Source: Candidatus Eiseniibacteriota bacterium (GTDB taxonomy: Bacteria; Joyebacterota; Joyebacteria; Joyebacterales; Joyebacteraceae). From it: 64,000 bases of DNA. The stretch lies in NCBI GenBank assembly GCA_030622115.1, contig JAUXGN010000012.1, forward strand, positions 1-64,000. The letters run 5' to 3'. The translations under genes were made by a program, and so were the position numbers. The notes under the pieces are model-generated. The model saw only the letters and a program-made list of their open reading frames with translations, made no database searches and was not told where the DNA came from. How positions within the stretch are numbered: position 1 is the first letter of the stretch; each line of letters begins with the position of its first letter. This document shows, piece after piece, positions 18,436-40,402 of the stretch.

Positions 18436-18577
18436 CGTTCCTCCTTCCGGGCCACGGCTCTTGAGCCGCGATCCCGCCTGTCCACTGCTTGCTTTCCTTC
18501 GCTTCCCCATTTGTATTCCCTCATGTTCCGATTCCCCGCATGGCTTCGCGGGAACAATGCCAATGCCGACATGCTTC

Positions 18578-19801: not shown

Positions 19802-19816
19802 ATGGGGCCTCCCGTC

Positions 19817-21558: not shown

Positions 21559-21569
21559 GGGTAACCTCG

Positions 21570-22961
21570 TCAGGACGCTTCCCGCTTGCCGATGGCCGAC
21601 AGGATGCGTTCCGCTACTTTGTAGATGTCGCCGGCTCCAAGTGTTACGACGACGTCGCCGGGGCGTATGATTTCGACAGCACGCTCCAGCAGCTCGTCCA
21701 TGTCCTCGATGTACGATGCGTCTCTGTGGCCGTATCGTATCGCGGCCTCCACGATATTGGCTCCGCTCACCCCCTCGATGGGTGTTTCACTGGCGGCGTA
21801 GATTCCTGTGACCATAAGTACGTCGGCGTCGTAGAATGATCTTCCAAACTGGTCGGCCAGCTTCTGTGTTCGTGTGTATCTGTGAGGCTGGAAGAGGACG
21901 ACGAGTCTTCTGTTCCAGCACGCGGCTGCGGCCGCGAGAGTTGTTCCGACCTCTGCTGGGTGGTGGCCGTAATCATCCAGTACAAGCACATTGTTGACCT
22001 CCCCTTTGATCTCGAACCTGCGAGCGATTCCTTCAAACTCCTTCAAGGACTGAGCGATGTCCCCGAACTCCACACCGAGTTCGAGGCCCACCGCAACTGC
22101 GGCGAGGGAATTGTAGATGTTGTGAAGCCCCGGCATGTGTATCTCGATCCTGCCCATCTCCTCTCCGCGCACTACGACGGAGAATGCTGTCAGCTCCCCT
22201 GACGACTCGATATCGTAGCCCTGCACATCCACCTGACCGGTCAGGCCGTAGCTCACAACCCTGCGGTGAATGTCGGAGATTATGGACTGGATGCTGTGCT
22301 GGTCCAGGCAGACCACGGAGCAGCCGTAGAACGGAACGCTGTTGGCAAACAGAATGAACGCTTCCTTGATCTCGTCTATCCCCTTGTAGAAATCGAGATG
22401 CTCCTCATCGATGGTTGTGATGACGGCCATTGTCGGTGAGAGCTTCAGGAACGACCCGTCGCTCTCATCGGCTTCCGCCACGATGTACTCGCTGGATCCG
22501 AGTCGGGCGCCTGTTCCCATGGTCTTCACGGTTCCACCAACGACGACCGTGGGATCCAGTCCACCGGCAGTAAGCACAGTAGCTATGAGCGAGGTGACGG
22601 TCGTCTTGCCGTGTGTTCCCCCGACGGCTACCGAATACTTCATGCGCATCAGTTCGGCGAGCATTTCGACGCGTGGGATGACCGGAATCATCGCCGCCCG
22701 AGCTGCCACAACTTCTGGGTTGCTCGGCGAGATCGCGGTTGAGGTGACCACGACATCGGCCCCCTCGATATTGGCGGCATCATGACCGTAGTGGATCCTG
22801 CCGCCCAGGCGCGTGAGCCTGTCAGTAATCTCTCCCCGATGAAGATCGGAGCCGGACACGCTGAAGCCAAGAGTGAGCAGGATCTCCGCGATCCCTCCCA
22901 TCCCGACGCCGCCTATCCCCACGAGATGAACACATTTGACTCTGCCGAACATCGTAACCAT
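21570..22961 (-). CDS. murC: UDP-N-acetylmuramate--L-alanine ligase
   Basis: VHLVGIGGVGMGGIAEILLTLGFSVSGSD; VGGTHGKTTVTSLIA; DDYGHHPAEV. Confidence 0.97.
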   Translation of the reverse strand: MVTMFGRVKCVHLVGIGGVGMGGIAEILLTLGFSVSGSDLHRGEITDRLTRLGGRIHYGHDAANIEGADVVVTSTAISPSNPEVVAARAAMIPVIPRVEMLAELMRMKYSVAVGGTHGKTTVTSLIATVLTAGGLDPTVVVGGTVKTMGTGARLGSSEYIVAEADESDGSFLKLSPTMAVITTIDEEHLDFYKGIDEIKEAFILFANSVPFYGCSVVCLDQHSIQSIISDIHRRVVSYGLTGQVDVQGYDIESSGELTAFSVVVRGEEMGRIEIHMPGLHNIYNSLAAVAVGLELGVEFGDIAQSLKEFEGIARRFEIKGEVNNVLVLDDYGHHPAEVGTTLAAAAACWNRRLVVLFQPHRYTRTQKLADQFGRSFYDADVLMVTGIYAASETPIEGVSGANIVEAAIRYGHRDASYIEDMDELLERAVEIIRPGDVVVTLGAGDIYKVAERILSAIGKREAS

Positions 22962-22988
22962 GTCTCTTCTCTACTCCTTGCGGGCCTG

Positions 22989-24089
22989 TCAGTGCCTGGT
23001 CTCTGACGCCACTGCCAGAACGTCCCGCGCGACCCTGTTAGCCGCATCGGGCCGCGCGAGGACTCTGGCTGCGCTTGACATACTCGTCAGCCGCGTGCGA
23101 TCGCGAAGGAGACCTTCGATGGTGTCGGCGAGCCGATCTCCAGTTAGCTCACCGTCGGGAATCACTACAGCCGCTCCGGCATCCTCCACGGAGCGGGCGT
23201 TCTTCATCTGATGGTCGTCAGTCGCGTGCGGGTACGGAACGAGAATGGCAGGCCGCCCCACGATGGCCGCCTCGGCCAGCGTTGCAGCACCGGCGCGTGA
23301 GACAACGATGTCGCACGCCGCGAAAACCGGGGCGATATCATCGAGGAACGTCTTGACGATCGCCCGCGCTCCGACCGACACTGCCTGACGACGAACATGC
23401 TCAAGTTCCTCCACGCCGGTCTGAATGATGAACTCGACCCCTGCCGCGGACAACCGCGGCAGGGCTTCGGCCACTGCAAGGCTCAGCTGCCTGGCCCCCC
23501 GGCTTCCACCCACGACCATCACAACATCCGCCTCTTGTGTGAGGCCTAGAGTACGGCGCGCGACAGCGCGATCGATTTCATCGAATCCTCGTCGAACGGG
23601 GTTTCCCGACTGCTCGATTCTCTTCGCGCGCGGGAGGTGCCTCCCGGATTCCGCGAAGGTCACGTGCACTACCTCCGCGAACCTCGAGAGGACCCTCGTG
23701 GCGAGCCCCGGCCAGGAGTTCTGCTCCTGAAGAACGATCGGAATCCCTACGGCGCGGGCCGCAAGCACGGACGGAAGGCTGACGAACCCACCCGTTCCAA
23801 CGGCGACATCCGGTCGCGTCCTCACGAGAGCACAGACTGCCTTCAGGCAACCCGCGGCCACCGCGAACGGGACCGCTGCATTCCTGATGACTGATCCACG
23901 AGTGACTCCCATCGAAGGCACGGACACGAACCGTCTTCCCGTCCCCAGCACAACGCGCTCTTCGATCGATCCCCTGCGTCCCATGAAGAAGACCTCCGCC
24001 TCCGGGGAAAGTCCCTCAATCGCCTCGGCGATCGCGATCCCGGGGAATATGTGCCCCCCTGTACCTCCTCCGGTGATCATTATCCTCAC
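22989..24089 (-). CDS. murG: UDP-GlcNAc--undecaprenyl-PP-MurNAc-pentapeptide GlcNAc transferase
   Basis: MITGGGTGGHIFPGIAIAEA; GGFVSLPSVLAARAVGIPIVLQEQNSWPGLATR; GTG start in a GTGA overlap with the ftsW stop. Confidence 0.95.
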   Translation of the reverse strand: MRIMITGGGTGGHIFPGIAIAEAIEGLSPEAEVFFMGRRGSIEERVVLGTGRRFVSVPSMGVTRGSVIRNAAVPFAVAAGCLKAVCALVRTRPDVAVGTGGFVSLPSVLAARAVGIPIVLQEQNSWPGLATRVLSRFAEVVHVTFAESGRHLPRAKRIEQSGNPVRRGFDEIDRAVARRTLGLTQEADVVMVVGGSRGARQLSLAVAEALPRLSAAGVEFIIQTGVEELEHVRRQAVSVGARAIVKTFLDDIAPVFAACDIVVSRAGAATLAEAAIVGRPAILVPYPHATDDHQMKNARSVEDAGAAVVIPDGELTGDRLADTIEGLLRDRTRLTSMSSAARVLARPDAANRVARDVLAVASETRH

Positions 24090-25228
24090 GACCTCTTTCC
24101 TCTTCGACTCTCGCGTGACTGAGCATCGACCGTCTCGAATACCCTGCGACGCGACATGTTTATCAGAATGCCGGCTGCAGCCATGTTCACAACGAGCGAC
24201 GTGCCCCCGTAGCTCACGAACGGGAGCGGCAGACCGGTCGTCGGCATGGTGGCCGTAACAACTCCTATGTTGATCGCTGCGTAGATCACGATCATCATCG
24301 TGAGTCCGCCGGCCAGAATGGATCCGTAGGGATCGTGTGATCTGGCGGCGATCCGGAGCCCACGCACCATCAGGGTCACAAACAGGGCGACGAGAAACAG
24401 CGCTCCGATGAGTCCCAGCTCCTCTCCCCATATCGAAAACGCGAAGTCAGTGTGCGAATCCGGGATGAACGCCCGCTGGCGGCTCGCTCCCAATCCGCGT
24501 CCAACAATCCCACCTGAGCCGAGGGCGATCAGCGACTGGTAGACCTGGTAGATGGGACCTTGCGTGTTCACTCCTGCGAGCGACAGATCGTAGGTCGACT
24601 GCCAGATGTCGACACGCTCAGCAATGCGGGGGACAAGCTTGTATGCCAGAAATCCCAGAGGCGCAGCTACGAAACCGAGCGCGGAGATATGCGACAGCCT
24701 GGCGCCTCCGAGAAAGAGCATTGTCAGCGCGAGAATCAGAATCGCAAGAGCGCTTCCATAGTCCTGCTGTCCGGCTATGAGAGCCACCGCGAGCACGACC
24801 AGCACAAGCCGTGGAGCAAGCCCATGTGCGAAGTCGCCGAGATCCTTCTGCCTGCGATCAAGAACATCGGCGAGGTAGAGAACGAGAACCAGTTTCGCCA
24901 CCTCACCTGTCTGTATGATCAGGAGCGTCGAGGTTGCTCCCTTGATGGTCTTCCCGGAAGTGAGCGTGAGCACAAGGAGCAGAAGCGATGTCAGCATCGC
25001 GGGCTTCGCGAATCTCCGATACCACCTGTAGTCGACGGAGGCGAACGCACCCATGGCGGCGAATCCGATCAGAAGCCTGACAGTCTGCCTCTGCATCATG
25101 ACATTCTCCCCCCCGAGCTTGATGCTCGAGAAGTAGACGCTGGCCGTGTAGACGGTCATTGTGCCGACCAGGACGAGCAGAAGCACCGTCCAGACAAGAG
25201 GCCTGTCGTATCTGATCGCACCCCTCAC
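24086..25228 (-). CDS. ftsW: Septal peptidoglycan polymerase FtsW (SEDS family)
   Basis: Polytopic SEDS protein; SHTDFAFSIWGEELGLIGALFL; TTGLPLPFVSYGGTSLVVNMAAAGIL. Confidence 0.96.
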   Translation of the reverse strand: MRGAIRYDRPLVWTVLLLVLVGTMTVYTASVYFSSIKLGGENVMMQRQTVRLLIGFAAMGAFASVDYRWYRRFAKPAMLTSLLLLVLTLTSGKTIKGATSTLLIIQTGEVAKLVLVLYLADVLDRRQKDLGDFAHGLAPRLVLVVLAVALIAGQQDYGSALAILILALTMLFLGGARLSHISALGFVAAPLGFLAYKLVPRIAERVDIWQSTYDLSLAGVNTQGPIYQVYQSLIALGSGGIVGRGLGASRQRAFIPDSHTDFAFSIWGEELGLIGALFLVALFVTLMVRGLRIAARSHDPYGSILAGGLTMMIVIYAAINIGVVTATMPTTGLPLPFVSYGGTSLVVNMAAAGILINMSRRRVFETVDAQSRESRRGKRS

Positions 25229-26652
25229 GCCTTGTTCTCCCTTCCGCCGGACGCCGCGGCCGCGTTCATGAGTCGCGTTACCTCAGTCTTGAATCTGCGC
25301 CCCCGGTCCTCGAAATCCTCAAACATGTCGAAGCTCGCGCAGGCCGGCGACAGGAGAACAACATCTCCGTATTCGGCCATCGTCCTGGCCAACTCGAGCG
25401 CTTCTCTGAGTGATCCTGCAAGCCTGACCGGCACAGCTCCGTCGAGCGCGGCCTTCATCTTGACCGCTGCCTCTCCGATGAAGATGGCCTCCCTCACACC
25501 GTGGCCTGCCTGTTCCCTTAAGATATCGAAACCCGAGCCCTTGTCCCTGCCCCCTCCTATCCAGATGATCGGGGCGTCGTAGCTCATGAGCGCGTACCTG
25601 ACGGAGTCGGCATTGGTCGCCTTGGAGTCGTTCACATAGCGCACTCCATCTATCAGCGCCACGTCCTCCAGCCGGTGTTCGAGAGACCTGAACGTCCTGA
25701 GCACGTCTGATGCATCCACGTAGTCGATGTCGACGAGGAGTGCCGCCGCCAGTGCCGCCAGTGAGTTCCAGACATTGTGCGGCCCCGGAAGGCCTAGTTC
25801 GCTCACGGGCATGATCTCCGTCTCACCACCACCGATCCGCGACACTATCTGTCCATCCCGGACAAAAACGCCGCCTTCGACTTCCCGGAATCTGCTCACG
25901 GGAACAACAGTCCCGGGTATCTCGTACGCAGCTTCATTGAGAAGCTCGTCATCGACGTTCAGAACTGCGTAGTCGTCGGATGTCTGGTTCTGGAATATCC
26001 TGAGCTTCGCGGCGATGTAGTCCTCGTACGAATCGTACCGGTCAAGATGATCCTCTGTAATGTTGAGCAGGACTCCGACGTGCGGCCTGAAGGTCTCGAT
26101 CGTATCCAGCTGAAAGCTCGACACTTCCGCCACGATGAGCCCGTCGGACGGCAGACCGGCGATCTCCCCCGAGATCGCCTCGCCGGTGTTCCCACCGACA
26201 GCAACCCGACGACCGGAGCTTCTCGCGAGTTCCCCGATCAGAGTCGTGGTCGTTGTCTTTCCGTTCGTTCCCGTCACTGCCACCCACTCCGCATCTGAGT
26301 TCGAATACGCGAGTTCGAGTTCCCCGATGATGGGGATGCCGCTGTCGCGCGCCTCGCACAGAAGAGGAGACGCGAGCGGCACGCCGGGACTCGTAACCAC
26401 GAGATCGATGCCGTTCATGAGTCCCCGCGGATGCTCACCAAACACGAGCTCAACCCCTCTCTCGCGCCAGTCCCCTAAAGAAAGAGCGAGTTCGACCTCG
26501 CGCTTGCGATCGGTCGCCACCACCTTGCTTCCCAGACTCAGGAGCAGATCGACGGCCGCTCTTCCGCTTCTCGCCAAGCCGACAACAAGCACTCTCTTCC
26601 CTTCCAGCTCTCGCCGTACCCGAGTTTCCAAGGAGTACCGCCCTCCTCCCAC
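25225..26652 (-). CDS. murD: UDP-N-acetylmuramoylalanine--D-glutamate ligase
   Basis: VLVVGLARSGRAAVDLLLSLG; VTGTNGKTTTTTLIGELAR; ALIDGVRYVNDSKATN. True start may be a TTG just after a GGAGGAGGG RBS near 26640. Confidence 0.96.
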   Translation of the reverse strand: MGGGRYSLETRVRRELEGKRVLVVGLARSGRAAVDLLLSLGSKVVATDRKREVELALSLGDWRERGVELVFGEHPRGLMNGIDLVVTSPGVPLASPLLCEARDSGIPIIGELELAYSNSDAEWVAVTGTNGKTTTTTLIGELARSSGRRVAVGGNTGEAISGEIAGLPSDGLIVAEVSSFQLDTIETFRPHVGVLLNITEDHLDRYDSYEDYIAAKLRIFQNQTSDDYAVLNVDDELLNEAAYEIPGTVVPVSRFREVEGGVFVRDGQIVSRIGGGETEIMPVSELGLPGPHNVWNSLAALAAALLVDIDYVDASDVLRTFRSLEHRLEDVALIDGVRYVNDSKATNADSVRYALMSYDAPIIWIGGGRDKGSGFDILREQAGHGVREAIFIGEAAVKMKAALDGAVPVRLAGSLREALELARTMAEYGDVVLLSPACASFDMFEDFEDRGRRFKTEVTRLMNAAAASGGRENKA

Positions 26653-26741
26653 GTCGCTCTTTGGTTCCCCACCAACCGGTCTTCATTAGGTCACGCTGCG
26701 CTTTCCGGTTCGAGTCGTCAGTCCGATGACGCGGCTCTCCA

Positions 26742-27851
26742 TCACTGGAGTTTCAGCGTCGAGAGCGAGAGGAGCGCGAAAAGAGCCCCGACGATCCAGA
26801 ATCGAACGACGATCTTGCTCTCCGGCCATCCCAGCTTCTGGAAATGGTGGTGGAGAGGAGCCATGAGAAATACCCGTTTGCCTCGTAGCTTGTATGAGGC
26901 GACCTGGATGATGACCGAAGCGGCGACCATGACAAACAACCCGCCCACGATCAGCAGCCACATCTCCTTCTTTATGAGAATAGCCAGTGTCCCGAGTGCG
27001 CCGCCTACCGCCAGCGAACCTGTGTCTCCCATGAAGATCTCGGCGGGGTGCGCGTTGAACCACAGGAATCCGAGCCCGGCGCCTATGAGCGCTGAGCAGT
27101 AGACCGTCAGTTCTCCCGCACCCGAGATGTACGGGATGTTCAGGTAGTCGCTGAACCTGACGTGCCCAGTTACGTAGCTCAAGGCGGCAAATGCGAGCGC
27201 GCAGAAAACAACCAGACCTATCGCGAGACCGTCCAGCCCATCCGTCAGATTCACCGCATTGGAGCTGGCCGTGATGACGATCATCACGAAAAGCACGTAG
27301 GCCGGACCGAGGGACAGAAGCGCGTCCTTGAGGAACGGGATAGCGACGTTGGTCGGATCCGCGATGAATGTACCGCGATAGATGAGCAGTCCGATGACGA
27401 GCCCCAGCACGAGCTGTCCGGCAAGCTTGTAGCGCGCGACCAGCCCCTTTCGCCGCTTCTTGACGACCTTGAGGTAGTCGTCCGTGAAACCGACGATCCC
27501 AAGCCAGAGCGTGGCCATCACCATGAGCCAGATGAACTCGTTGTCGAGGCGCGCCCAGAGAAGCGTGGGAACGACCGTAGCGACGAGAATAAGGAGTCCG
27601 CCCATCGTCGGCGTGCCGGCCTTGTCGGTGTGCGACTCCGGTGCGTATTCGCGCACGCCGTTGGTGAGCGCGCGGCGCTTGAGCATGCGAATGAAGAAGG
27701 GGCCCAGGAGGAAGCTTATGAGCAGGGCTGTCATGGCCGCGTACGCCGAACGGAAGGTGATGTAACGGAAAACGTTGAAGGCAGATATGTAGTCCCTCAA
27801 GGGGTACAGCCAGTGATACAACATGTCAGCCCTTTTCCGATGGGGAGCCAA
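26742..27851 (-). CDS. mraY: Phospho-N-acetylmuramoyl-pentapeptide transferase
   Basis: GTPTMGGLLILVATVVPTLLWA; GFTDDYLKVVKKRRKGL; NLTDGLDGLAIG; FMGDTGSLAVGGALG; PLHHHFQKLGWPE. Confidence 0.97.
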   Translation of the reverse strand: MAPHRKRADMLYHWLYPLRDYISAFNVFRYITFRSAYAAMTALLISFLLGPFFIRMLKRRALTNGVREYAPESHTDKAGTPTMGGLLILVATVVPTLLWARLDNEFIWLMVMATLWLGIVGFTDDYLKVVKKRRKGLVARYKLAGQLVLGLVIGLLIYRGTFIADPTNVAIPFLKDALLSLGPAYVLFVMIVITASSNAVNLTDGLDGLAIGLVVFCALAFAALSYVTGHVRFSDYLNIPYISGAGELTVYCSALIGAGLGFLWFNAHPAEIFMGDTGSLAVGGALGTLAILIKKEMWLLIVGGLFVMVAASVIIQVASYKLRGKRVFLMAPLHHHFQKLGWPESKIVVRFWIVGALFALLSLSTLKLQ

Positions 27852-27864
27852 GTGGTCCCGCCGG

Positions 27865-29259
27865 CTAGGAGACGGGCGTCTCCTTCACCAGCAACTCAAC
27901 CACTTCCTCCATGCGCATTCCGCGCGACCCCTTCAACAAAACGACGCCGTCCGGTGCGAGGTCTCTATCGAGTTCCCGTACCAGCGCGTCCTTATCTCTA
28001 TACATTCCCACCCTGTCGGGTGGCATTCCGCTGTCTATCGCTCCGTCCCGAAGAGCCTCGATCTCGCTTCCGAAGAGATAGAGCCTCTCAACGCCAAGCT
28101 CTGCTGCGGCGACACCGGCCTCGCGATGAACGTCCTCGCTCCTCTCGCCCATCTCGAGCATGTCGCCTATCACCGCGGCGGTCTCCTTCCCGCGTCCCAC
28201 GGACACGAGAGTCTCGAGCGCGGCCCGAAGCGACCCTGGATTGCAGTTGTAGGCATCGTTGATGACTGTTCTTCCTCCGACGGTCAGGACGGCCATTCTC
28301 ATCGGGCTCGGTTCGAAGTCCGACAGCGCGCCCGCCGCCTCAGCCACCGACACACCAAGCACCGCACCTGCGGCGACGGCAGCGAGGGCGTTCATCACGT
28401 TGTGCCGCCCGGGAACCGGAAGAACTATCGTCGTGGACGCACCTACGATGTCGCTCTTCTCAACGCGGAAGCGCACGCCGGAGGCGCTCGCCTCTATGTC
28501 GGAGGCTCTCACGTCGGCGTTCTCCGACAAACCAAACGTTGTCACGTCCGTCTGAGCCCGCCCTGCCTGCGACATAACACGAGGATCATCGGCGTTCAGG
28601 ATGGCGGCTCCTCCAACCTCAAGAACGTCCAGGAGCTCCCCCTTCGCTTCTGCCACCGTCTCTATGTCATGCATCGTCTCGATATGCGCTTCAGAAACGT
28701 TCGTGATGATACCCACCTGCGGCTTCACGGCTGCCCCCAGGCGTGCTATCTCGCCCGGGTGGTTCATGCCGATCTCGACAACGGCTGCGGTGTGCCGCTC
28801 CTCCACTCCAAGGAGGGTGAGTGGAACTCCGATGTGATTGTTGTAGTTGCCCGCTGTCTTGGTCACACACCACTTCTTGGCGAGCACGGCGGCGGTCATA
28901 TCCTTGGTCGTCGTCTTGCCGTTCGTTCCCGTTACAGCAACGACGCGCAGTGCGAATCTGTCTCTGTACCAGCCGCTCAGGGTCAGGAGGGCATCGGTCG
29001 TGTCAGACACACGAACGAGCGGTCCGGAAGCCGACCGTACCTCGGCCGATTCGGCGACAACGGCGGCAACCGCGCCCCGCTCGAATGCCGCGTCGACGAA
29101 GTCGTGCCCATCGTAACGCTCTCCGCGAATAGCGATGAAGAGGTCGTCCGCTCGCGTGGTCCGTGAATCGATCGAGACCCCCGCTGCTACCGCAGCCGGA
29201 GGACCGTCGCTGACCACACCCAGAGCCTGTGCCATCTCGGTCAAGAGCACCCTCTCCAT
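27865..29259 (-). CDS. murF: UDP-N-acetylmuramoyl-tripeptide--D-alanyl-D-alanine ligase
   Basis: VTGTNGKTTTKDMTAAVLAKKWCVTKTAGNYNNHIGVPLTLL; NDAYNCNPGSLRAALETL; VLLKGSRGMRME. Confidence 0.96.
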   Translation of the reverse strand: MERVLLTEMAQALGVVSDGPPAAVAAGVSIDSRTTRADDLFIAIRGERYDGHDFVDAAFERGAVAAVVAESAEVRSASGPLVRVSDTTDALLTLSGWYRDRFALRVVAVTGTNGKTTTKDMTAAVLAKKWCVTKTAGNYNNHIGVPLTLLGVEERHTAAVVEIGMNHPGEIARLGAAVKPQVGIITNVSEAHIETMHDIETVAEAKGELLDVLEVGGAAILNADDPRVMSQAGRAQTDVTTFGLSENADVRASDIEASASGVRFRVEKSDIVGASTTIVLPVPGRHNVMNALAAVAAGAVLGVSVAEAAGALSDFEPSPMRMAVLTVGGRTVINDAYNCNPGSLRAALETLVSVGRGKETAAVIGDMLEMGERSEDVHREAGVAAAELGVERLYLFGSEIEALRDGAIDSGMPPDRVGMYRDKDALVRELDRDLAPDGVVLLKGSRGMRMEEVVELLVKETPVS

Positions 29260-30783
29260 TCAGTGCGCCTCTGCTTCTCTAGCAGCGATTGCTGCCCGGG
29301 CCTCTTCACGATCATCGAAGTGGAGTCTCTCGTTGCCGATGATCTGGTAATCCTCGTGCCCCTTCCCGGCGATGACGACAATGTCGCCGATCGCAGCCCT
29401 TGCGACGGCGACCATGATGGCCTCGCGCCGATCCTCTATGATGATGATTTCGGTGCTACCACCGGTACCGCGCATGCCCCCGAGGATCTCGGCTATGATG
29501 GCGCCGGGCCTCTCGGTTCGCGGGTTGTCGGAGGTAACCACGACCAGATCTGATGCGAGAGCGGCGATGCGACCCATTATCGGGCGCTTCCTCCGGTCAC
29601 GGTCGCCACCACATCCGAACACTGTTATGACACGAGCCGGATTCAGATCCCGGACGGCCGCGAGAACCTTATCGAGGGCGTCGGGAGTGTGCGCGTAGTC
29701 CACAACGACCGAGAACCCACGCCCTCCCGGGACAAGCTCCAGCCTTCCGGCGACACGCGTCACCTTCTTGAGCCCGGAACTGATGGCATCAAGCGAGACA
29801 CTCTGTGTGACGGCCACGGCTGTGGCCGCCAGTGCGTTCATGACGTTGAAGCCGGCTATGAGATTGAGATGTACGTCGACCTCACCAGCGGGCGTGTGGA
29901 AGACGGCCGTCGTTCCCTCGGGGGTCGTTTCAACATGCGAGGCGTGTACGTCTCCTTCGATCATCCCGTAGGAAAGCAGTGTGACTCCCGGAGCATCCGA
30001 CAACGATGCCAGGATCTCCCGACCGAAATCATCGTCGCGATTCACGATCGCCGATGCTCCCGGCTTGTTGGCGTCGCCGGCGATGAGAGTGAACAGCCTG
30101 CTCTTGGCCGCGCCGTACTCCGCCATCGAGCCGTGGAAATCGAGGTGGTCATGCGACAGATTGGTGAATGTCGCCGTGTCCATCTTCATACCCAACACGC
30201 GCCCGAGAGAGAGAGCGTGCGATGACACCTCCATCGTGACAGCCTCAACGCCATCATCCAGCATCGAGGCCAGGAGTCTGGCCAGGTCGGCGGATTCCGG
30301 GCTTGTCCGTTCCGCGGCGGTGCTCGCCCCTGCCCCGCGATACCCCAGGGTTCCGATGGCGCCCGTCTTGATGCCGCTCTCCCTGAGAATCGAATCGATG
30401 AGATGAAGGGTCGTCGTCTTGCCGTTCGTTCCTGTGATCGTGTGAATCTTGAGACGCTCGGAGGGCCGTCCGTAGAATTCGTGCGCCACGGGACCCATCG
30501 CAGCTCGCGTGTCGGCGACGACGATCTCCGTCAGACCGGAGGCGCCGGTCGGCTCCTCGACGAGAGCGGCAACGGCTCCCCGCCTCGCGGCCTCGGCCAC
30601 GTGTGAGTGCCCGTCGGAGACAAACCCTCTGACGGCTACAAAGAGACCATTCTCTCTCACCATCCGCGAGTCGTACTCGACGGCGCCCACCTCGATCTCA
30701 TCGATCGTGGTCTTCGCATGCGTGTCTGCGATCTGAAACTGCATGCCGCTTCCTCTGAGAATGTCACCGAGTCTCTGAAGCAC
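29260..30783 (-). CDS. murE: UDP-N-acetylmuramoyl-L-alanyl-D-glutamate--diamino acid ligase
   Basis: ITGTNGKTTTLHLIDSIL; VTMEVSSHALSLGRVLG; LSHDHLDFHGSMAEYGAAK; VFGCGGDRDRRKRPIMGRIA; TSDNPRTERP (DNPR motif, compatible with meso-DAP). Confidence 0.96.
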   Translation of the reverse strand: MLQRLGDILRGSGMQFQIADTHAKTTIDEIEVGAVEYDSRMVRENGLFVAVRGFVSDGHSHVAEAARRGAVAALVEEPTGASGLTEIVVADTRAAMGPVAHEFYGRPSERLKIHTITGTNGKTTTLHLIDSILRESGIKTGAIGTLGYRGAGASTAAERTSPESADLARLLASMLDDGVEAVTMEVSSHALSLGRVLGMKMDTATFTNLSHDHLDFHGSMAEYGAAKSRLFTLIAGDANKPGASAIVNRDDDFGREILASLSDAPGVTLLSYGMIEGDVHASHVETTPEGTTAVFHTPAGEVDVHLNLIAGFNVMNALAATAVAVTQSVSLDAISSGLKKVTRVAGRLELVPGGRGFSVVVDYAHTPDALDKVLAAVRDLNPARVITVFGCGGDRDRRKRPIMGRIAALASDLVVVTSDNPRTERPGAIIAEILGGMRGTGGSTEIIIIEDRREAIMVAVARAAIGDIVVIAGKGHEDYQIIGNERLHFDDREEARAAIAAREAEAH

Positions 30784-30792
30784 AGATGCCCT

Positions 30793-32901
30793 CTATCCGG
30801 GAGCGCAGGTCAGAAAGACCCTGTCTCCCACCTCAATCTCCGATCCTGATCTTGGTGATTGCGCCTGAACCAGCCCGTTTCCCTCGAAGGCCACTGCGAG
30901 CCCGAAGCTCGAAGCGAGCCTGCGGGCGGCTCTCACACTCATTCCGCGAAGCTCCGGCATGCGCGCCGGAGCGCCGGTGTCCACATCGCAGGAGGCCGGC
31001 CGGATGGCGGCGGTCAGATTGCCGGACACATCGGCCAAGCTGTGGAGCGGTAACGCCGACAGGATCCCCACGGCCCCGACCGGCGCGAACAGGTCGGAAC
31101 CGCAGTCTTCGTAGCCGAAGCCGGACGCAACACTCATATCCGATACCGTGTGAGGATCCCGATCCACTCGTCTGCGAAGCCGCTGCCTCCCCAACACCAG
31201 GTCATGACCGGATCCTCTGATAAGCCGTTCAACGATGCGACGGAAGACCGGGGCCGCTACCTGCCCACCCAGACCTCTCCCCCTTGGCTCGTCTATCACA
31301 ACCAGACAAACGATCCCCGCATCCTCAGCCGGAGCCAATCCGACGAACGACGAGACCCATTTGCCGGGCGCGTATCCGCGAATGCCCGGCACGACCTTCT
31401 GGGCGGTTCCGGTCTTGCCGGCTACGGTCACCTCGTCGGGCGAGGCATTCATCCCGGTCCCGCGCTCTGTCACCTCAAGCATGATGCCGCGCACAGCGGC
31501 AGCTACCTCCGGGTCAACCACTCGCCGGATGACGCATGGACTCGCTTCCTCCACAACCCGTCCATCATCATCGAGAACCGCTTTCACGATGCGCGGCTCC
31601 ATGAGGCAACCACCGTTCGCGATGGCGGAGTAGGCAGTGACGAGCTGAAGCGCCGTCACTGCGATCTCCTGACCGATGCCTATCGTGTGCACGGAGCGCG
31701 AACTCCATTCGGTCGGTTCCCTGAGCGTTCCGCGCACTTCACCGGGAAGATTGACAGCAGTGAGACAACCGAAGCCGAAGTCTCTCGCGTACGAGTAGAG
31801 AGGATTTGCTCCAACCTCACCGGCTATCTGTGCGAAGCAGACATTCGACGATTTCACGAGCGCCGTCTCGAAATCCATCCAGCCGTGCGGCTTGACATCT
31901 CGAATGGTGAAGCTCCCAAACCGCCCCTTTCCCTGGAATGCGTAGTAGACGGATGTCATGTCGGCGGCGCCTGTGGCGAGGGAGGCGCAGGCTGTGAAGA
32001 CCTTGAAGGTCGATCCCGGTTCAAACTGGTCGGTCACCGCCCTGTTGCGCCAGTTCTCCTCAGCGAAGCGATCCGGCGCATTGCAGTCGAAAGACGGCCA
32101 GTTGGCCATCGCGAGTATGTCCCCGGTCCACGGGTCCTGCACGATGACGGTTCCGCTCTTGGCCTCGTACTCCCGCACGGTGCGTTCAAGCTCAACCTCG
32201 ACGATCGCCTGCAGATTCATGTCGATCGTGAGGACAACCGACATGCCGTCGTCAGGCGTCGTTCGCGTGCTGGCAGGTGCGGGTGTGCGCTGCCGCCTAC
32301 TGTCCATGTAGTAGTAGACCGTTGCCTCAGAGCCGGTGAGCAAGTCGTCCATGCGGCTCTCCATTCCAGAGATGCCGCCCCCGTCGATATCCGTGTACCC
32401 GATGACGTGGCACGCGCCCCTGCCGAACGGATAGATCCGCTTCGTCTCAGCGAGGAACTCGATGCCCGGGAGATCCAGCACCGCGAGGGCCTCAGCTCTC
32501 GCAGGTTCCACCTGCCGCTCGATCCACACGAAACTCGTGTTCTTCCTGAGACGTGCCTCATACGAGGCAGTGGAACCGCCGAGCGCTCTCGACAATCCCC
32601 GTGCCACGGTCCTCGGCGATTTGATCTCCCCGGGATAGGCGCAGATAGAACTCACCGTGAGGTTGTCGGTGAGGCACACCATATTCCTGTCGTAGATCTG
32701 ACCCCTCTCGGGAGCCAGCTTGACCTCCACGACCTGCTGACGCTCGGCAAGACTAGCCAGGCGAGGTGCGTGCACGACCTGGATCAGGATCAGGCGAAGC
32801 ACGATGAATGCCCACACACCCAGACCCACCAGAAGCGTGACGCTGAACCGCTTCGAGTGGACCTGCCCGGTCTTCGTGCCTTTAGCCGTTAGTCTGTGCA
32901 T
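30793..32901 (-). CDS. ftsI: Septal penicillin-binding protein (FtsI/PBP3-like) with C-terminal PASTA region
   Basis: Active-site KSSN (ALVKSSNVCFAQIA), SxxK-type EPGSTFKVFTACASL, KTGTAQKV; C-terminal PELRGMSVRAARRLASSFGLAVAFEGNGLVQAQSPRSG resembles PASTA. Confidence 0.94.
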   Translation of the reverse strand: MHRLTAKGTKTGQVHSKRFSVTLLVGLGVWAFIVLRLILIQVVHAPRLASLAERQQVVEVKLAPERGQIYDRNMVCLTDNLTVSSICAYPGEIKSPRTVARGLSRALGGSTASYEARLRKNTSFVWIERQVEPARAEALAVLDLPGIEFLAETKRIYPFGRGACHVIGYTDIDGGGISGMESRMDDLLTGSEATVYYYMDSRRQRTPAPASTRTTPDDGMSVVLTIDMNLQAIVEVELERTVREYEAKSGTVIVQDPWTGDILAMANWPSFDCNAPDRFAEENWRNRAVTDQFEPGSTFKVFTACASLATGAADMTSVYYAFQGKGRFGSFTIRDVKPHGWMDFETALVKSSNVCFAQIAGEVGANPLYSYARDFGFGCLTAVNLPGEVRGTLREPTEWSSRSVHTIGIGQEIAVTALQLVTAYSAIANGGCLMEPRIVKAVLDDDGRVVEEASPCVIRRVVDPEVAAAVRGIMLEVTERGTGMNASPDEVTVAGKTGTAQKVVPGIRGYAPGKWVSSFVGLAPAEDAGIVCLVVIDEPRGRGLGGQVAAPVFRRIVERLIRGSGHDLVLGRQRLRRRVDRDPHTVSDMSVASGFGYEDCGSDLFAPVGAVGILSALPLHSLADVSGNLTAAIRPASCDVDTGAPARMPELRGMSVRAARRLASSFGLAVAFEGNGLVQAQSPRSGSEIEVGDRVFLTCAPG

Positions 32902-33262
32902 CGTCGGTCCCCGCGGCCAGGTCCCCCGGCCGAATCGTGCGGCTGATGGTGCCATCCCCAAGGCGGATGGTCTCGCCAGGCCTCGGATGGCGCATGCCGA
33001 GGCGTTCCCGAGCGTATTCCTGAATCCGCTCCCGGCTCGAGAGAGTCACGCACTCCATTCTCAGAAACCCGATCTCCGTCCTGAGACATTCCCGTCTGTG
33101 CTGGAGTTCCTCGATCTCGGACGCGAGTCTTGTGGCATAGACCTGCTGCCAGATGCAGAGAACGCCGGTCACGAGCACGGCGCCCCAGATCAGGAGGCCC
33201 CTTGCGTGAAGCGGTCCACCAACCCTGTTCACTAGTCGTGTGAGGAGCTGCAGCTTCTTCAC
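32882..33262 (-). CDS. ftsL: FtsL-like septum component
   Basis: Short bitopic protein with a TM helix then coiled coil (LASEIEELQHRRECLRTEIGFLRMECVTLSSRERIQEYARERLGMRHPRPGE), between rsmH and ftsI. Confidence 0.8.
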   Translation of the reverse strand: MKKLQLLTRLVNRVGGPLHARGLLIWGAVLVTGVLCIWQQVYATRLASEIEELQHRRECLRTEIGFLRMECVTLSSRERIQEYARERLGMRHPRPGETIRLGDGTISRTIRPGDLAAGTDDAQTNG

Positions 33263-33383
33263 GATCCGTCACGCCTCCGTTCCTCCCCGGCCCCGGCTCT
33301 GCTCGTCGTTCTGCTCTTTCCGGATTCTTCCCGGGCTGACCGGTTGCCGGCGCCTCATGGCCTCCGGCAGACCGGCGGCCCGG

Positions 33384-34328
33384 TCAACCATTGTCATACG
33401 GAGCCAGCTTCTCGGCGGCTCTGAGCTTCGCTGATCTTGCCCTCGGGTTCCTTGCTATCTCAACGTCGCCCGGACGAACCACGCGCCGCGTGAGAATGCG
33501 CAATGTGGGCTTGCGCCCGCACACGCAGACCGGGAGATCCCTGGGACAGATGCACGGCCGTTCGGCCTTGACGAAGTCCTGCTTCACGATGCGATCCTCG
33601 AGCGAGTGATACGAGATAACGACAATCCTTCCACCTGCACTCAGAAGTGATTCAGCCTGCGCGAGGCCGGAGCGCAGGTTCTCCAGTTCGGAGTTGACGG
33701 CAATCCTGAGAGCCTGGAACACACGCGCCAACGTCTTGTTGCGATTCCGTGGCTTCGTGCTCACAACCGCGTCGGCCAGCTCCGCCGTTGTTCGGCATCG
33801 CCCAGCGTCTCGAGCCCGGATGATGGCCCGCGCGATCGGACGCGCGCGATGCTCCTCTCCGAAGCTGTAGAGAATTCTGGACAACGACCGCTCATCGCTC
33901 TTCGCTATGAGTCCCATGGCGCTCGTGCCGTGGTCTCTCCCCAGACGCATATCGATCGGTCCATCATTGCGGTAGCTGAATCCGCGTTCCGCATCGTCGA
34001 GCTGCATGGAGGAGAAACCAAGATCGAAGAGAACGCCGTCCACTCCCGCAAATCCCCGCTCCTCGGCGAGCACGGACAGATCGGCGAAATTGCCTTCAGT
34101 GATCTCCACTCTCTCTCCGAACGGTTTGAGGACCCTCGCCGCCTCATCGCATGCCGTGCTGTCCAGGTCCAGACCCAGGAGTCGGCCGGCTGGAGCATTG
34201 TCGAGAATCCGACTCGCATGCCCCCCACCACCCAGGGTGCAATCGATATACTGACCGTCCGTGCGGGTTACGAGGTAGTCGATGACCTCGGCAACCATCA
34301 CCGGCAGATGCAGAGCCTGCATTGTCAC
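33384..34328 (-). CDS. rsmH: 16S rRNA (cytosine(1402)-N(4))-methyltransferase
   Basis: HLPVMVAEVIDYLVTRTDGQYIDCTLGGGGHASRIL; GVLFDLGFSSMQLDDAERGFSYRNDGPIDMRL; ISYHSLEDRIVKQDF. Confidence 0.97.
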   Translation of the reverse strand: MTMQALHLPVMVAEVIDYLVTRTDGQYIDCTLGGGGHASRILDNAPAGRLLGLDLDSTACDEAARVLKPFGERVEITEGNFADLSVLAEERGFAGVDGVLFDLGFSSMQLDDAERGFSYRNDGPIDMRLGRDHGTSAMGLIAKSDERSLSRILYSFGEEHRARPIARAIIRARDAGRCRTTAELADAVVSTKPRNRNKTLARVFQALRIAVNSELENLRSGLAQAESLLSAGGRIVVISYHSLEDRIVKQDFVKAERPCICPRDLPVCVCGRKPTLRILTRRVVRPGDVEIARNPRARSAKLRAAEKLAPYDNG

Positions 34329-34392
34329 TTCGCTTTGTTTCAGATACGCGGCGTTGTTCTACCAACAGCGAGAACGGGACGGGCGAGTGCGG

Positions 34393-34752
34393 TCAGCTCG
34401 CTCGAAGATCGTGTGAAGATGCCGGCCCCATGTGTGTGTTCGCACCGTATGTACTCATTTCGAGGACGCCGTGGAGTCCGGCGAGGAGCAAGATGTTCCT
34501 CACATATGGGCTCAGACCGGCGACCGTCAGCTCACCCCTGTGCGAATGGACGAACTCGAACTCGCGGGCAAGCCGTGCTGCGTCCTGGTAGTCCACGTGA
34601 TCCACATCGGAGAAATCGAGGACGATTCGCGTCCTTCGCGAGATCAGAAGACCGGCAAGGTGCTGATGCAGCCGGTCGAAGTCACGCGCTCCCATGGACC
34701 CGGCCATGTGAAGTACGGTTGTCCTCGCTGTTTCCCTTGGAAGGATGGTCAT
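34393..34752 (-). CDS. STAS-domain protein inserted in the dcw cluster
   Basis: HQHLAGLLISRRTRIVLDFSDVDHVDYQDAARLAREFEFVHSHRGELTVAGLSPYVRNILLLAGLHGVLEM: STAS fold pattern, DYQD at the usual DSS/NST site. Confidence 0.75.
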   Translation of the reverse strand: MTILPRETARTTVLHMAGSMGARDFDRLHQHLAGLLISRRTRIVLDFSDVDHVDYQDAARLAREFEFVHSHRGELTVAGLSPYVRNILLLAGLHGVLEMSTYGANTHMGPASSHDLRAS

Positions 34753-34756
34753 GTTT

Positions 34757-35218
34757 CTACTCCTCCCCATTGCCGATCACGTCGCCCGGGTTCTCCCAGA
34801 GGGTCTCAGCGACCTCCTCGTAGGAAAGGCCGAACTCGTCCTTGTACTTCCGGTAGCGCTCGGGATTCCAGAACTCCACGCGCTCTATCGCACCTATCAC
34901 GAGCACGTCCTTCTCCAGTCCAACGAGTTCTCTGAGTTCCTGTGGGATGACAACGCGTCCATGACTGTCCACACTGACTTCACATGCTCGTGACGCGATC
35001 TCCCGCTTGAAGAACCGCGACTTGCCCGAGGTGAAGGAGAGCGAGCGTAGATCGCTCAGGACACGCTGCCACTCATCCCGGGGATAGAAAAAGAGACAAC
35101 CGTCGAGTCCAAGCGTGAGGATGAAGATCTCCCCCGTAGCCTTCCTGAACTTCGAGGGGATCGAGAGACGTCCCTTCGCGTCGAGCGTGTGTGTGTATGT
35201 TCCCAGAAAGGAGGTCAT
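34757..35218 (-). CDS. mraZ: Transcriptional regulator MraZ
   Basis: LGTYTHTLDAKGRLSIPSKFR...FFKREIASRACEVSVDSHGRVVIPQELRELVGLEKDVLVIGAIERVEFWNPERY: two DxxGR SpoVT/AbrB-like halves. Confidence 0.97.
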   Translation of the reverse strand: MTSFLGTYTHTLDAKGRLSIPSKFRKATGEIFILTLGLDGCLFFYPRDEWQRVLSDLRSLSFTSGKSRFFKREIASRACEVSVDSHGRVVIPQELRELVGLEKDVLVIGAIERVEFWNPERYRKYKDEFGLSYEEVAETLWENPGDVIGNGEE

Positions 35219-35242
35219 ATGGACTTCCAGAGCAAGAACTGG

Positions 35243-35266
35243 CCCACTTCATCCCATTCCATCCCA
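35243..35266 (-). promoter_or_regulatory. MraZ operator: three TGGG boxes at 10-bp spacing
   Basis: Minus strand TGGGATGGAATGGGATGAAGTGGG; boxes at 35263-35266, 35253-35256, 35243-35246, upstream of mraZ. Confidence 0.85.
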
Positions 35267-35274
35267 CTCGCGGG

Positions 35275-35304
35275 ATAGTAGCCGCCCTCCCCTGACACTG
35301 TCAA
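35275..35304 (-). promoter_or_regulatory. dcw promoter TTGACA-N18-TACTAT
   Basis: -35 as TGTCAA 35299-35304, -10 as ATAGTA 35275-35280; MraZ boxes directly downstream. Confidence 0.75.
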
Positions 35305-35361
35305 GTGAAAAAGATGCCTGTGCTATGGGCTGTTCGTAGGTTTTCTCGTACTGCAGCAACC

Positions 35362-35388
35362 GGTGGGATGGCTCGGCCGTATCCCACC
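35362..35388. repeat. Inverted repeat GGTGGGAT...ATCCCACC upstream of the dcw promoter
   Basis: Half-sites 35362-35369 and 35381-35388; both contain TGGGAT as in the MraZ boxes. Confidence 0.65.
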
Positions 35389-35399
35389 CCATTTCGCGG

Positions 35400-35441
35400 G
35401 CGAATCGAGTGAGGCGAGGCGAATCGAGTGAGGCGAGGCGA
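35400..35441. repeat. 19-bp tandem repeat GCGAATCGAGTGAGGCGAG (two copies plus a partial)
   Basis: Copies at 35400-35418 and 35419-35437, then GCGAAC. Confidence 0.85.
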
Positions 35442-35456
35442 ACGTGCTCTACAAGG

Positions 35457-35490
35457 CGAAGCGCCCGGGGTCGTCGTCCCGAGCGCTTCG
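35457..35490 (-). terminator. Hairpin downstream of the large C25 protease gene
   Basis: CGAAGCGCCCGGG ... CCCGAGCGCTTCG, 13-bp stem with one mismatch. Confidence 0.6.
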
Positions 35491-35561
35491 ATTCAGATCA
35501 ATTCTGTGTCTATGCTCCGGTCGGCGATCTCCACCTCCGCCGGATCCAATTCGTCGACGCG

Positions 35562-38500
35562 TTACTTGATGAGCAACATTTTCTTCGACTCGCTCTTGTC
35601 GCCGACGGCGATTCTGTAGAAGTAGACGCCCGATGCAACGAGCCTCCCACTTCCGTCACGCCCGTCCCAGACTGCCGAGTGGCGTCCGGGCTCCACGCGC
35701 GAATCCAGAAGCGTGCGAACGACAACTCCACCAACTGTGTAGATGGAAAGAGACACGGGCACACCGTCCTCGGCGGCCGGCACAATGAACTCTATCGTTG
35801 TGAGCGGGTTGAAAGGATTCGGAACATTCTGTTCCAGGAGTCGTCCACCGGCGTTCACAACATCATTGTCGTCGACCCCGACAGGGATCTCAAAGCCGTA
35901 GTGCTGCGTCCGCCACAGGTCGTGAAGGAAGCACCCCCATTCTATTCCGGCGCCATCATCGTAGGCGCCCTCGCAGTCCCAGACATAGACTCTGGTGTCC
36001 ATCCCGCCAACCACGACCTCAACATCACCGTCCCCGTCGACATCGTCCACGGTCGGAGACCCGTAGATGTCTGCTCCTGTCTGGATCGGCCAACCATCCA
36101 GAAGCGCCCCGTCAAGATCGAAGGCAAACAGCTTGCCCGCATCACTTCCTACGACCAACTCGAGATCCGGATCGGCATCGACATTGGCGATCGCCGGACT
36201 CGACTTCACCTTCCCGCCCAGGAACTGCGGCCAGCCGGTCATCGCGTTGCCCTGGTAGTCCCATATCATGATCTCACCGTCAGATCCCACCTGAACCAGT
36301 TCGAGGAATCCGTCACCCGTCAGGTCCGCAAGAACCGGCGAAGGGGGGAAATCTCCACTGTTCGCCATCGACTTCGGCCACCCTGCAAGCGTGTTCCCCT
36401 CATGATCGAACAGCCAGATACTCCAGCTCTTCGACGCAATCGCGATCTCCAGATCGCCATCCCCATCAACGTCTCCGACAGCCGGCGAGCTGTACGCCCT
36501 GGACGAGATTGATATGGGCCAACCGGGCACGTTGGAACCATCCGCATTGAAGCAATAGACGCTCTCCGTCGCTGCCGGCTGCAGGATTTCCAACTCTCCA
36601 TCCCCGTCTATGTCCGCAATCGCCGGAGAAGCATATACGTAGGGACTTCCAAGATCAGCGAAGACGCCGACGGTGAGCGGGTCGCCGTCTCCGTCAATAA
36701 ACTCGGATCCATTGTAGCTCCAACAGTAGAGCTTGCCGTCAGCGCAGGGAATCACCACCTCGCTTCGCCCATCACGGTCGAGATCGGCGAGGGCCGGACT
36801 GGCCCAGCAGAACTTCCCGGTCGTGACAGGCCACCCTGAAACCACGCTGCCATCTTCTCCGTTCCACACAAACACCTCGTGCGCGGGAACGCCACCTGTC
36901 CCCACGTCGGCCCAAGCCGCCGCGACGATCTCGACGCCGACGTCGCCGTCCACTTCGCCGACAGCAGGTGTGCAGCGGTATCCACCTTGACCATCGACTG
37001 CGAAAATGCCGGCGGTCCTTGGGTCGCCGTCTCCATCCTGGACCTCCGTACCGTCCGCATACCAGGCGTAGAGCTGTTCCGAGGCGGCGAGGATCTCCTT
37101 CGAACCATCACCATCCAGATCGACAACTGCCACGCTCGAGTACATCCCTCCCGACGTGGCAAGCGGCCATCCCGAAAGACTCGGTGGATTGGTGCTGATA
37201 CCGAGCACAGGGGAAGCGGTGCTCACGTTCCCTGACGAGTCCACAGCAACAACGTAGTAGTAGTATTGCGTGTTCTCATCGAGCCCACCATCAGCGAAAC
37301 ACGAGACGCCCTCGACGATCGCTGTGTTGGCTACGTCGTAGGGACCGGACTGGTTCTCGCTCCTCCACACATCGTATCCTCTGAGGTCGGGCTCAACGAC
37401 CTGTTCCCAGTGAACACTGATGGTCGTACCCACGACATCGCCCCAGATCGAGTCGGGCGGGTCGGGCCTGTGCAGATCAAGGTACTGCGTCCATGTCTTG
37501 CCGTACTCGTCGACAAGAAGAAGCTCGAGGTGGTTGGAGAGGTCACCGAGGATCGCAAATTCAAAACCGTCAAGGCCCGGCGCAGCCGCACCGGCTGAGA
37601 TATCTCCCCACACGTCGATGCTGTCCGCGAAGTTGATCAAGCCCGGGTCGGAGTAGCTGAGTTCGCCGGTGATCCCGTCTGCGTCTCCGTTTCCGTCATT
37701 GTGAACGTCGCAGAGGAGAATCACGGTCTCCCCCGTCTCGGGAACGCCGTCTCCGTCACCGCCAACTGAATCATCGATCTGTGTGTAGATGTGAACCAAC
37801 TCCGGTGCATACACGCGAACCGTGAACTCCTCCTGCCACGTGGTTCTCCCGGGCTCCGAAAAGCTCAAGGTGAATTCGGCGTCATGGTTGTTTGGACAAT
37901 CGGATGTGACAAGAAGTCTGAACGCTGCGGGGAACTGAGCAGTCGCCATGGATTCCACATCACCCACGAACACCGAGTCCGCCTCGATCACGATGTATGA
38001 ATCGATCGAAGAGACGATAGCTGAGACCGCGGAAGCCGTTACGATTCCACCGTTGCGAACGCTGATGTCGAGCTCCACAACTTCGTCCGGTTCCGGTTTG
38101 CCGTTCTCGTTCCCGGAGCTTCCTCCGATGCTGTCGTCATCCACGGTTACGTCCGTGAGATGTATGTAGGCTCCGGCTGCCATGACTACATTGATGCTCG
38201 ATTCGAAGACGTAGTAGTTGGGACACGTGACGGTGACCTGGAGTACACCGGTCACCGTCGGAGTGAAATCTATGTGGACCTGTCCGGCGGCGTCCGTTGT
38301 CCCGTAGGCGTAGACATCCCCGGATGAAGAGGACACACAGACCCTGGCGCCCTCCACGAGGCCGGGATCGGTCACGTTGAACGTTACACCATCTTCCCCG
38401 ACCAGCATCGCGCCTGAGAAGGCCACGGAGAGATTCCTCGGACGCGCTGTCCTCATGGCTATCTCGGGGTCACCCAGCAGAACCATGGAGAACTGCGTCC

Positions 38501-40298
38501 ACCTGTCGGTGTTGTCGCGGCCTGACTCCTCGAAACTCGCGTGAAGCGCGCACACCATCCCGTGCAAAGGTCCTATCTCCTGGCATCCAGAGACATACAG
38601 GAGGTCCATCCAGTCCCAGTAGTAGTCGCGGCACGTCGTGGGAAAAGCGTACCGGGTCGGCCCCAGTGTGGCGAATCCCCCACCAGTCGGGTTGATGACA
38701 ACGCGCTCTGCGATGCAATCGTAGTCAATGGCCGAGGATGTACAGTCAAGTAGCCAGTAGAATCCGGCCTTGTCGATGCCGTTCGTGAGACCCGATGCGT
38801 CGGACATCGTGATGTAGTTGTCGAGACCTACCCTCATAATGTCCTTGTTCCCATGGCCGACGTGAACACTGAGGTTGTACCCCTGTTCCAGCGATTCCAC
38901 AGCTGCAGCGGCACTGATGGGATACGATTCCGGAAACGCAGCCGTGTTCGCGTACAGCGCGATATTGGAGACTTGAGCGGGGACGAACGGCAACCCCGGC
39001 TCGATAATGTCGGTTGCGCCGTCAAGACTGTACGGTCCGCTCTCCCAATCGTACGGAAAGAGCACTTCCCCCATGTACAGGTTGCGATCTGTGAAGTGCG
39101 GTACGGGACTCTCCCGATAAGCCTCGCACTTGGCCAGGAACGCCTGCACGTCGACGATATTGCTCACCGGAGCACGCCCAACGAAAACATCCGGATAGAG
39201 ATCAACGCCATCACCCGGCTGTTCCTCGGTCTTGTAGCCCTCGCCGTACATATCATCTCCGTCGTCGTTCCAGGTGCCGTCCAAGTCCGAGTAGTAGAGG
39301 TCTGTCGGGATATCCTCACCACTGTAGTAGGTCGTGCGCCCGTACCGCGCGGGAACGAACTCGGTGTCACCTCCGAGCAGCACATACGTTGTCCCCCACA
39401 GAGCGTATGCATCCTGGAGGAAGAACCGTATGCGTTCGGCGGTGTCGCTCCCCCCGGGGTAGTTCGCATTGATCCACGACACGGTTCGAACGACAGCCGG
39501 CACACCCTTTTGCGTTTTCCAATCAGCGAGTTCCTGGAAATACGGTTCGTGTTCGGTCGTGGTGACGATGACGTACTCGACGGGGCTGCCCTCGAGTGAC
39601 GGTGCATACCGGGGCGCAAACCCTCCACTCAGCGGGCCGGAGATCACGTCTGTCTGCATGTTCCTGAGGACACCCACCTCACCCGGATTGGCAACGATGG
39701 TCTGCACAAGACGACGATAGAGCTTGTCGGAAGCAGCGGTGATTCTCTCCCGATCCGCCGCTCTTCTGCTACACGGCTCCAGTCTGAGTTCGACGGTCAG
39801 CTCGGGCGCCAGTACGAGCCGTCCTGATAACGGCCTCAGCTGCACGGGATAGAGTGCAATGGTAGCGATGCGATACCCGCCCAGAAATCCATCCCCGAGG
39901 TAGACCGCCCGCTTCGGAGGATAACGAAGATCACTCGCGTAGATGCGGTCATCGGGTTCGACCCAAGGCGCGCTCGCCCCGATCGGAACCTCGGTCTGGA
40001 CCGGATAGATCGCGTGCGTGCCCTCGAGAACGATCTCATCGCCTTCGATGATCACCAGATCCTCCACCGTCATTCCATCCGGAATCACGAAGCGGACGAT
40101 GCGAGCCGGAATGTCCGGCTCCCCTTCGGCTGCCAGCCGCCTTCCACCGGCAAAGTTCAGGGTCTCGAATCCCCTCGTCTGTCCCAACACAATGTCAGCA
40201 GCGATCAGTTCGGTGTGCGCGACGGGTCCGGCTGCAGCCGTGACCGATGCCACGGTTGTCGCAAGGACAAGCAGCGTGACAAGGAGTGTGGATCGCAT
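35562..40298 (-). CDS. Large secreted gingipain-like (C25) protease with FG-GAP/VCBS-type beta-propeller repeats and FlgD-like C-terminal tail
   Basis: EYVIVTTTEHEPYFQELADWKTQKGVPAVVRTVSWI; VGHGNKDIMRVGL; LLDCTSSAIDYDCIAE; eight D-x-D-G-D type repeats (VDLDGDGSKEIL ... VDDVDGDGDVEVVVGG); tail QNVPNPFNPLTTIEFIVP...AVWDGRDGSGRLVASGVYFYRIAVGDKSESKKMLLIK. Confidence 0.9.
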   Translation of the reverse strand: MRSTLLVTLLVLATTVASVTAAAGPVAHTELIAADIVLGQTRGFETLNFAGGRRLAAEGEPDIPARIVRFVIPDGMTVEDLVIIEGDEIVLEGTHAIYPVQTEVPIGASAPWVEPDDRIYASDLRYPPKRAVYLGDGFLGGYRIATIALYPVQLRPLSGRLVLAPELTVELRLEPCSRRAADRERITAASDKLYRRLVQTIVANPGEVGVLRNMQTDVISGPLSGGFAPRYAPSLEGSPVEYVIVTTTEHEPYFQELADWKTQKGVPAVVRTVSWINANYPGGSDTAERIRFFLQDAYALWGTTYVLLGGDTEFVPARYGRTTYYSGEDIPTDLYYSDLDGTWNDDGDDMYGEGYKTEEQPGDGVDLYPDVFVGRAPVSNIVDVQAFLAKCEAYRESPVPHFTDRNLYMGEVLFPYDWESGPYSLDGATDIIEPGLPFVPAQVSNIALYANTAAFPESYPISAAAAVESLEQGYNLSVHVGHGNKDIMRVGLDNYITMSDASGLTNGIDKAGFYWLLDCTSSAIDYDCIAERVVINPTGGGFATLGPTRYAFPTTCRDYYWDWMDLLYVSGCQEIGPLHGMVCALHASFEESGRDNTDRWTQFSMVLLGDPEIAMRTARPRNLSVAFSGAMLVGEDGVTFNVTDPGLVEGARVCVSSSSGDVYAYGTTDAAGQVHIDFTPTVTGVLQVTVTCPNYYVFESSINVVMAAGAYIHLTDVTVDDDSIGGSSGNENGKPEPDEVVELDISVRNGGIVTASAVSAIVSSIDSYIVIEADSVFVGDVESMATAQFPAAFRLLVTSDCPNNHDAEFTLSFSEPGRTTWQEEFTVRVYAPELVHIYTQIDDSVGGDGDGVPETGETVILLCDVHNDGNGDADGITGELSYSDPGLINFADSIDVWGDISAGAAAPGLDGFEFAILGDLSNHLELLLVDEYGKTWTQYLDLHRPDPPDSIWGDVVGTTISVHWEQVVEPDLRGYDVWRSENQSGPYDVANTAIVEGVSCFADGGLDENTQYYYYVVAVDSSGNVSTASPVLGISTNPPSLSGWPLATSGGMYSSVAVVDLDGDGSKEILAASEQLYAWYADGTEVQDGDGDPRTAGIFAVDGQGGYRCTPAVGEVDGDVGVEIVAAAWADVGTGGVPAHEVFVWNGEDGSVVSGWPVTTGKFCWASPALADLDRDGRSEVVIPCADGKLYCWSYNGSEFIDGDGDPLTVGVFADLGSPYVYASPAIADIDGDGELEILQPAATESVYCFNADGSNVPGWPISISSRAYSSPAVGDVDGDGDLEIAIASKSWSIWLFDHEGNTLAGWPKSMANSGDFPPSPVLADLTGDGFLELVQVGSDGEIMIWDYQGNAMTGWPQFLGGKVKSSPAIANVDADPDLELVVGSDAGKLFAFDLDGALLDGWPIQTGADIYGSPTVDDVDGDGDVEVVVGGMDTRVYVWDCEGAYDDGAGIEWGCFLHDLWRTQHYGFEIPVGVDDNDVVNAGGRLLEQNVPNPFNPLTTIEFIVPAAEDGVPVSLSIYTVGGVVVRTLLDSRVEPGRHSAVWDGRDGSGRLVASGVYFYRIAVGDKSESKKMLLIK

Positions 40299-40402
40299 TC
40301 GGTCTCCCCCACTAGCGGCCATGTAGCAGATAGATGGCGCAAGGCTACAATCAAGAAAAACAGGAGTTAGCTTCCACTCCGACCGACTGCCCTCTTGCGC
40401 CT

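Follow-up and report, generated by a model that had tools for sequence, protein, structure and literature searches.

Three direct repeats downstream of the dcw promoter Pmra in a Candidatus Eiseniibacteriota bacterium form, with high confidence, the operator through which MraZ would autorepress the dcw operon by occluding the region where transcription is predicted to start. The stretch of DNA analyzed, referred to here as the window, comprises 64,000 nucleotides of contig JAUXGN010000012.1. That the boxes are a real and strongly conserved MraZ-binding site, predicted to lie at the start of the regulator's own operon, is very probable given their uniqueness in the genome, the conservation of both their phase and their spacing relative to the promoter, and the identification of the neighboring gene as mraZ.

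The promoter and its repeat array

Read on the minus strand from 35304 to 35243, the sequence is TTGACA-N18-TACTAT-CCCGCGA-GTGGG-ATGGA-ATGGG-ATGAA-GTGGG. The -35 hexamer (TTGACA, 35299-35304, minus strand) and the -10 hexamer (TACTAT, 35275-35280, minus strand) are separated by an 18-nt spacer and constitute the sole promoter returned by a simple sigma-70 scan of positions 33000-35700. The start was placed 7 nt past the -10 element, at A35268, so that box 1 is located at about +2 of this predicted start. Seven nucleotides separate the -10 element from box 1 (GTGGG, 35263-35267), which begins 49 bp upstream of the mraZ start and is followed on the same strand by box 2 (ATGGG, 35253-35257) and box 3 (GTGGG, 35243-35247), the three together occupying 35267-35243. 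Their TGGG cores, at 35266-35263, 35256-35253, and 35246-35243, have an exact 10-bp period. The initial annotation had described the two hexamers and three TGGG boxes with precisely this spacing, a reading that is correct to the base, and its placement of the start near 35268, with boxes running from about that point, agrees with the position computed from the only promoter found.

The pattern TGGGN6TGGGN6TGGG occurs once in the window, compared with 0.02 occurrences expected from shuffled sequences, and that copy, at the mraZ promoter, is the only one among the 2,631,142 bases of the genome; a search of the same 2.63 Mb for a second three-box operator returned none. Conservation extends beyond TGGG to a unit that reads roughly aaGTGGGNNgaa across the phylum, with a purine preceding TGGG. 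Box 2 carries A rather than G before TGGG, a departure that was counted against the operator reading. As a candidate fourth box, no further in-phase position in the source genome scores as box-like; two genera (g3 and g7) have an additional GTGGG at -21, one base out of phase. The region contains neither a site resembling a terminator nor a match to any Rfam family. Just 5' of the -35 element is a T-tract (35308-35312, minus strand) that is kept across the phylum at about -45 to -42 from box 1 and resembles a proximal UP element, a role we infer for it from its conserved columns.

Comparison within the phylum made use of 20 genomes, 18 of them with mraZ, the relatives being mostly labelled Candidatus Eisenbacteria in the public collection. 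Conservation of the TGGG phase in related genomes, a point raised in the initial annotation, is borne out: the exact triple box lies directly 5' of mraZ in 17 of the 18, and the remaining genome (G009) no longer has box 1 but keeps the other two with their phase unchanged, which indicates that three intact boxes are not strictly required. TTGACA is found upstream in all 18, in the context TTGACA or TTGACAC. With genera equally weighted, the mean information content is 1.73 bits for box columns, 1.15 bits for spacer columns, and 0.39 bits for the immediate downstream flank. In every one of the 17 triple-box genomes, the distance from the start of the -35 element to box 1 is 36-38 nt, whereas the interval between box 1 and the mraZ start ranges between 48 and 70, some of these gene starts having been set by the match and not by a start codon. 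It is therefore the promoter, and not the gene, with which the operator keeps a constant register.

The triple array is absent from both phylum genomes that lack mraZ. These belong to a single genus (g8; G011 and G014, 90% and 57% complete, respectively), in which mraZ, the STAS gene described below, and rsmH were not found; either the beginning of the dcw cluster has been lost there, or the assemblies may not include it. This genus was considered as a control for co-loss of regulator and operator but is uninformative, because rsmH and the STAS gene are missing too and the locus may simply be absent.

The regulator and the cluster it precedes

The gene adjoining the array (34757-35218, minus strand) encodes a protein of 153 amino acids, and its designation as mraZ, made in the initial annotation, is confirmed by curated protein-family models. 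The product matches PF02381 (2.3e-33) in two stretches and scores 119.9 bits with the equivalog model TIGR00242, above its cut-off of 98.35; at the sequence level, it also matches solved MraZ chains. A ring-shaped oligomer, an octamer, that binds the repeat is the form expected of a member of the MraZ family. Both DxxxR motifs are kept, as DAKGR (D13-R17) and DSHGR (D84-R88), and both are invariant in an alignment of eleven proteins extending from the phylum to E. coli MraZ.

From mraZ, the dcw gene order continues on the minus strand to ftsZ, ending at 17212. The gene rsmH (mraW) is located at 33384-34328 (minus strand; TIGR00006, 4.9e-94), and 17212-33262 contains, on the same strand and as assigned from open reading frames and Pfam matches, ftsL, ftsI with PASTA domains, Mur ligases in the murE and murF positions, mraY, and murD, then ftsW, murG, murC, murB, ftsQ, ftsA, and ftsZ, the individual Mur ligases being named by position. 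In the 121 bp that separate rsmH from ftsL, the promoter scan detected no promoter-like site. Near the cluster are two genes for large proteins of the peptidase C25 (gingipain-like) type that carry FlgD-Ig domains at the C terminus. One (35562-40322, minus strand) lies a short distance upstream of mraZ, and the other (11346-13691, minus strand) is downstream of ftsZ, from which it is separated by genes for a TPR protein and a radical-SAM protein.

The interval between mraZ and rsmH is occupied by a gene for a STAS-domain protein (34393-34752, minus strand; PF01740, 5.8e-9), and each of the phylum's 18 genomes with mraZ has such a gene at this point. Farther afield, STAS genes occupy the same position in two genomes (L021 and L022). 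A literature search for a link between STAS proteins and the dcw cluster found no paper. The region of the phospho-acceptor serine in SpoIIAA reads DSSG; the corresponding residues of the dcw STAS proteins are DYQD or SYRD, and a phospho-switch therefore looks unlikely.

Mode of action and alternative readings

In the proposed mechanism, RNA polymerase would use TTGACA-N18-TACTAT, and MraZ oligomers would bind the three in-phase GTGGG-type boxes, from about +2 to +26. Bound MraZ would then cover the start and the initial transcribed region, lowering transcription and giving rise to negative feedback on mraZ itself and on the genes behind it, in the order mraZ-STAS-rsmH-ftsL-ftsI-mur genes towards ftsZ. 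Binding by the MraZ of the source organism is a prediction from the sequence comparisons, as are repression, its direction, and its presumed reach down the operon. With regard to this reach, the initial annotation had predicted autorepression of the "whole" dcw operon, a wider claim than the evidence bears out: the effect reported in E. coli covers the initial 11 genes, from mraZ through murC (PMC7761207).

An addition to this scheme, rather than a replacement for it, is offered by two inverted copies of the box, GTGGGAT-N11-ATCCCAC (35363-35387), whose arms precede box 1 by 120 and 100 bp. An oligomer bound at the start could conceivably reach back to this pair as an auxiliary operator, bridging and clamping the whole promoter, although we regard such contact as unlikely. 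Each arm is a copy of the operator word GTGGGAT, and the pair, the single one of its kind in the source genome, occurs in four of the 20 phylum genomes, from two genera, in one copy each and always upstream of mraZ. Within the genus, the arms outlast their surroundings (13 of 16 columns invariant, compared with 15 of 48 in the stretch separating the pair from the T-tract), and TCCCAC is present in the upstream segments of four of seven genera (p about 0.001 by shuffling, in a test made after the element had been seen). However, three genera are entirely without the element, its right arm is broken in one genome (G001), and both the spacing of the arms and their distance to the operator vary; a fixed helical phasing is ruled out, since the distances differ among genera. 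The pair could also act as a hairpin, but one that would be only mildly stable (z -1.6) and has no T-run behind it, and a terminator or RNA element at this site was rejected. Were the auxiliary operator real, it would amount to two-site control by MraZ, which is not seen in E. coli.

It is improbable that the boxes are an MraZ site at which the protein, in this phylum, mainly activates or fine-tunes the promoter instead of occluding it. The effects of MraZ do vary between bacteria, and its overexpression in Mycoplasma gallisepticum was accompanied by higher FtsZ levels (PMC8475190). Against this, the boxes lie 3' of the -10 element and over the predicted start, where binding normally blocks initiation, and repression is what the data from E. 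coli and M. genitalium demonstrate, deletion of mraZ in the latter leading to increased mraW and ftsZ (PMC8475190). Least plausible, despite a GC-rich region and an upstream inverted pair able to fold, is the idea that the triple repeat is a G-rich match produced by chance or base composition, or belongs to a leader RNA, given its rarity in shuffled sequences and in the genome, a phase that is kept from genus to genus and shared with E. coli, box columns that stay fixed while the leader changes, and the lack of a match in Rfam. Autorepression by occlusion is the reading that we retain.

Comparison with known MraZ sites

The closest parallel is Pmra (mraZ1p) of E. coli K-12, which reads TTGACA-N18-TAAACT-N7-GTGGG-AAATT-GTGGG-GCAAA-GTGGG 5' of mraZ. 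The 18-nt spacer, the 7-nt gap, the 10-bp period, and the number of boxes are identical in the two, and in both the boxes are 3' of the -10 element and over the start, which in the present case is predicted. They differ in box 2, which is ATGGG here and GTGGG in E. coli, in the STAS gene that here separates mraZ from rsmH, and in the inverted box pair upstream. PmraBc of Burkholderia cenocepacia likewise has 10-bp-period repeats 3' of the -10 element that overlap the start site, but these number four rather than three, and binding of MraZ to a fragment carrying them was demonstrated by EMSA, whereas the site described here is predicted (PMC7761207). The Mollicute site, given as (AAAGTGKN3)3 in a report citing Fisunov 2016 (PMC5282649), is also made up of three direct repeats of 10-bp period at the dcw promoter, with a GTG core and an A-rich left flank; GTG is followed by G or T in that site and by GG here. 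In other phyla, many mraZ genes are preceded by arrays of GTGG in 10-bp phase that outscore all of their shuffled versions (200 shuffles; floor 0.005), several of them 36-38 nt from a -35 element, and a minority lack either the array or such a promoter distance.

The Eisenbacteria operator is an ordinary, if very clean, example of an established regulatory switch, from a phylum that has received little study, and it leaves established knowledge of MraZ unchanged. Less ordinary are the upstream inverted pair and the STAS gene within the mraZ-rsmH interval. What the site adds is the extension to an uncultured phylum of the precise promoter-operator layout of E. coli, in spacer, gap, and box period alike, and this shared geometry argues that control of the dcw cluster by MraZ is old and geometrically constrained.
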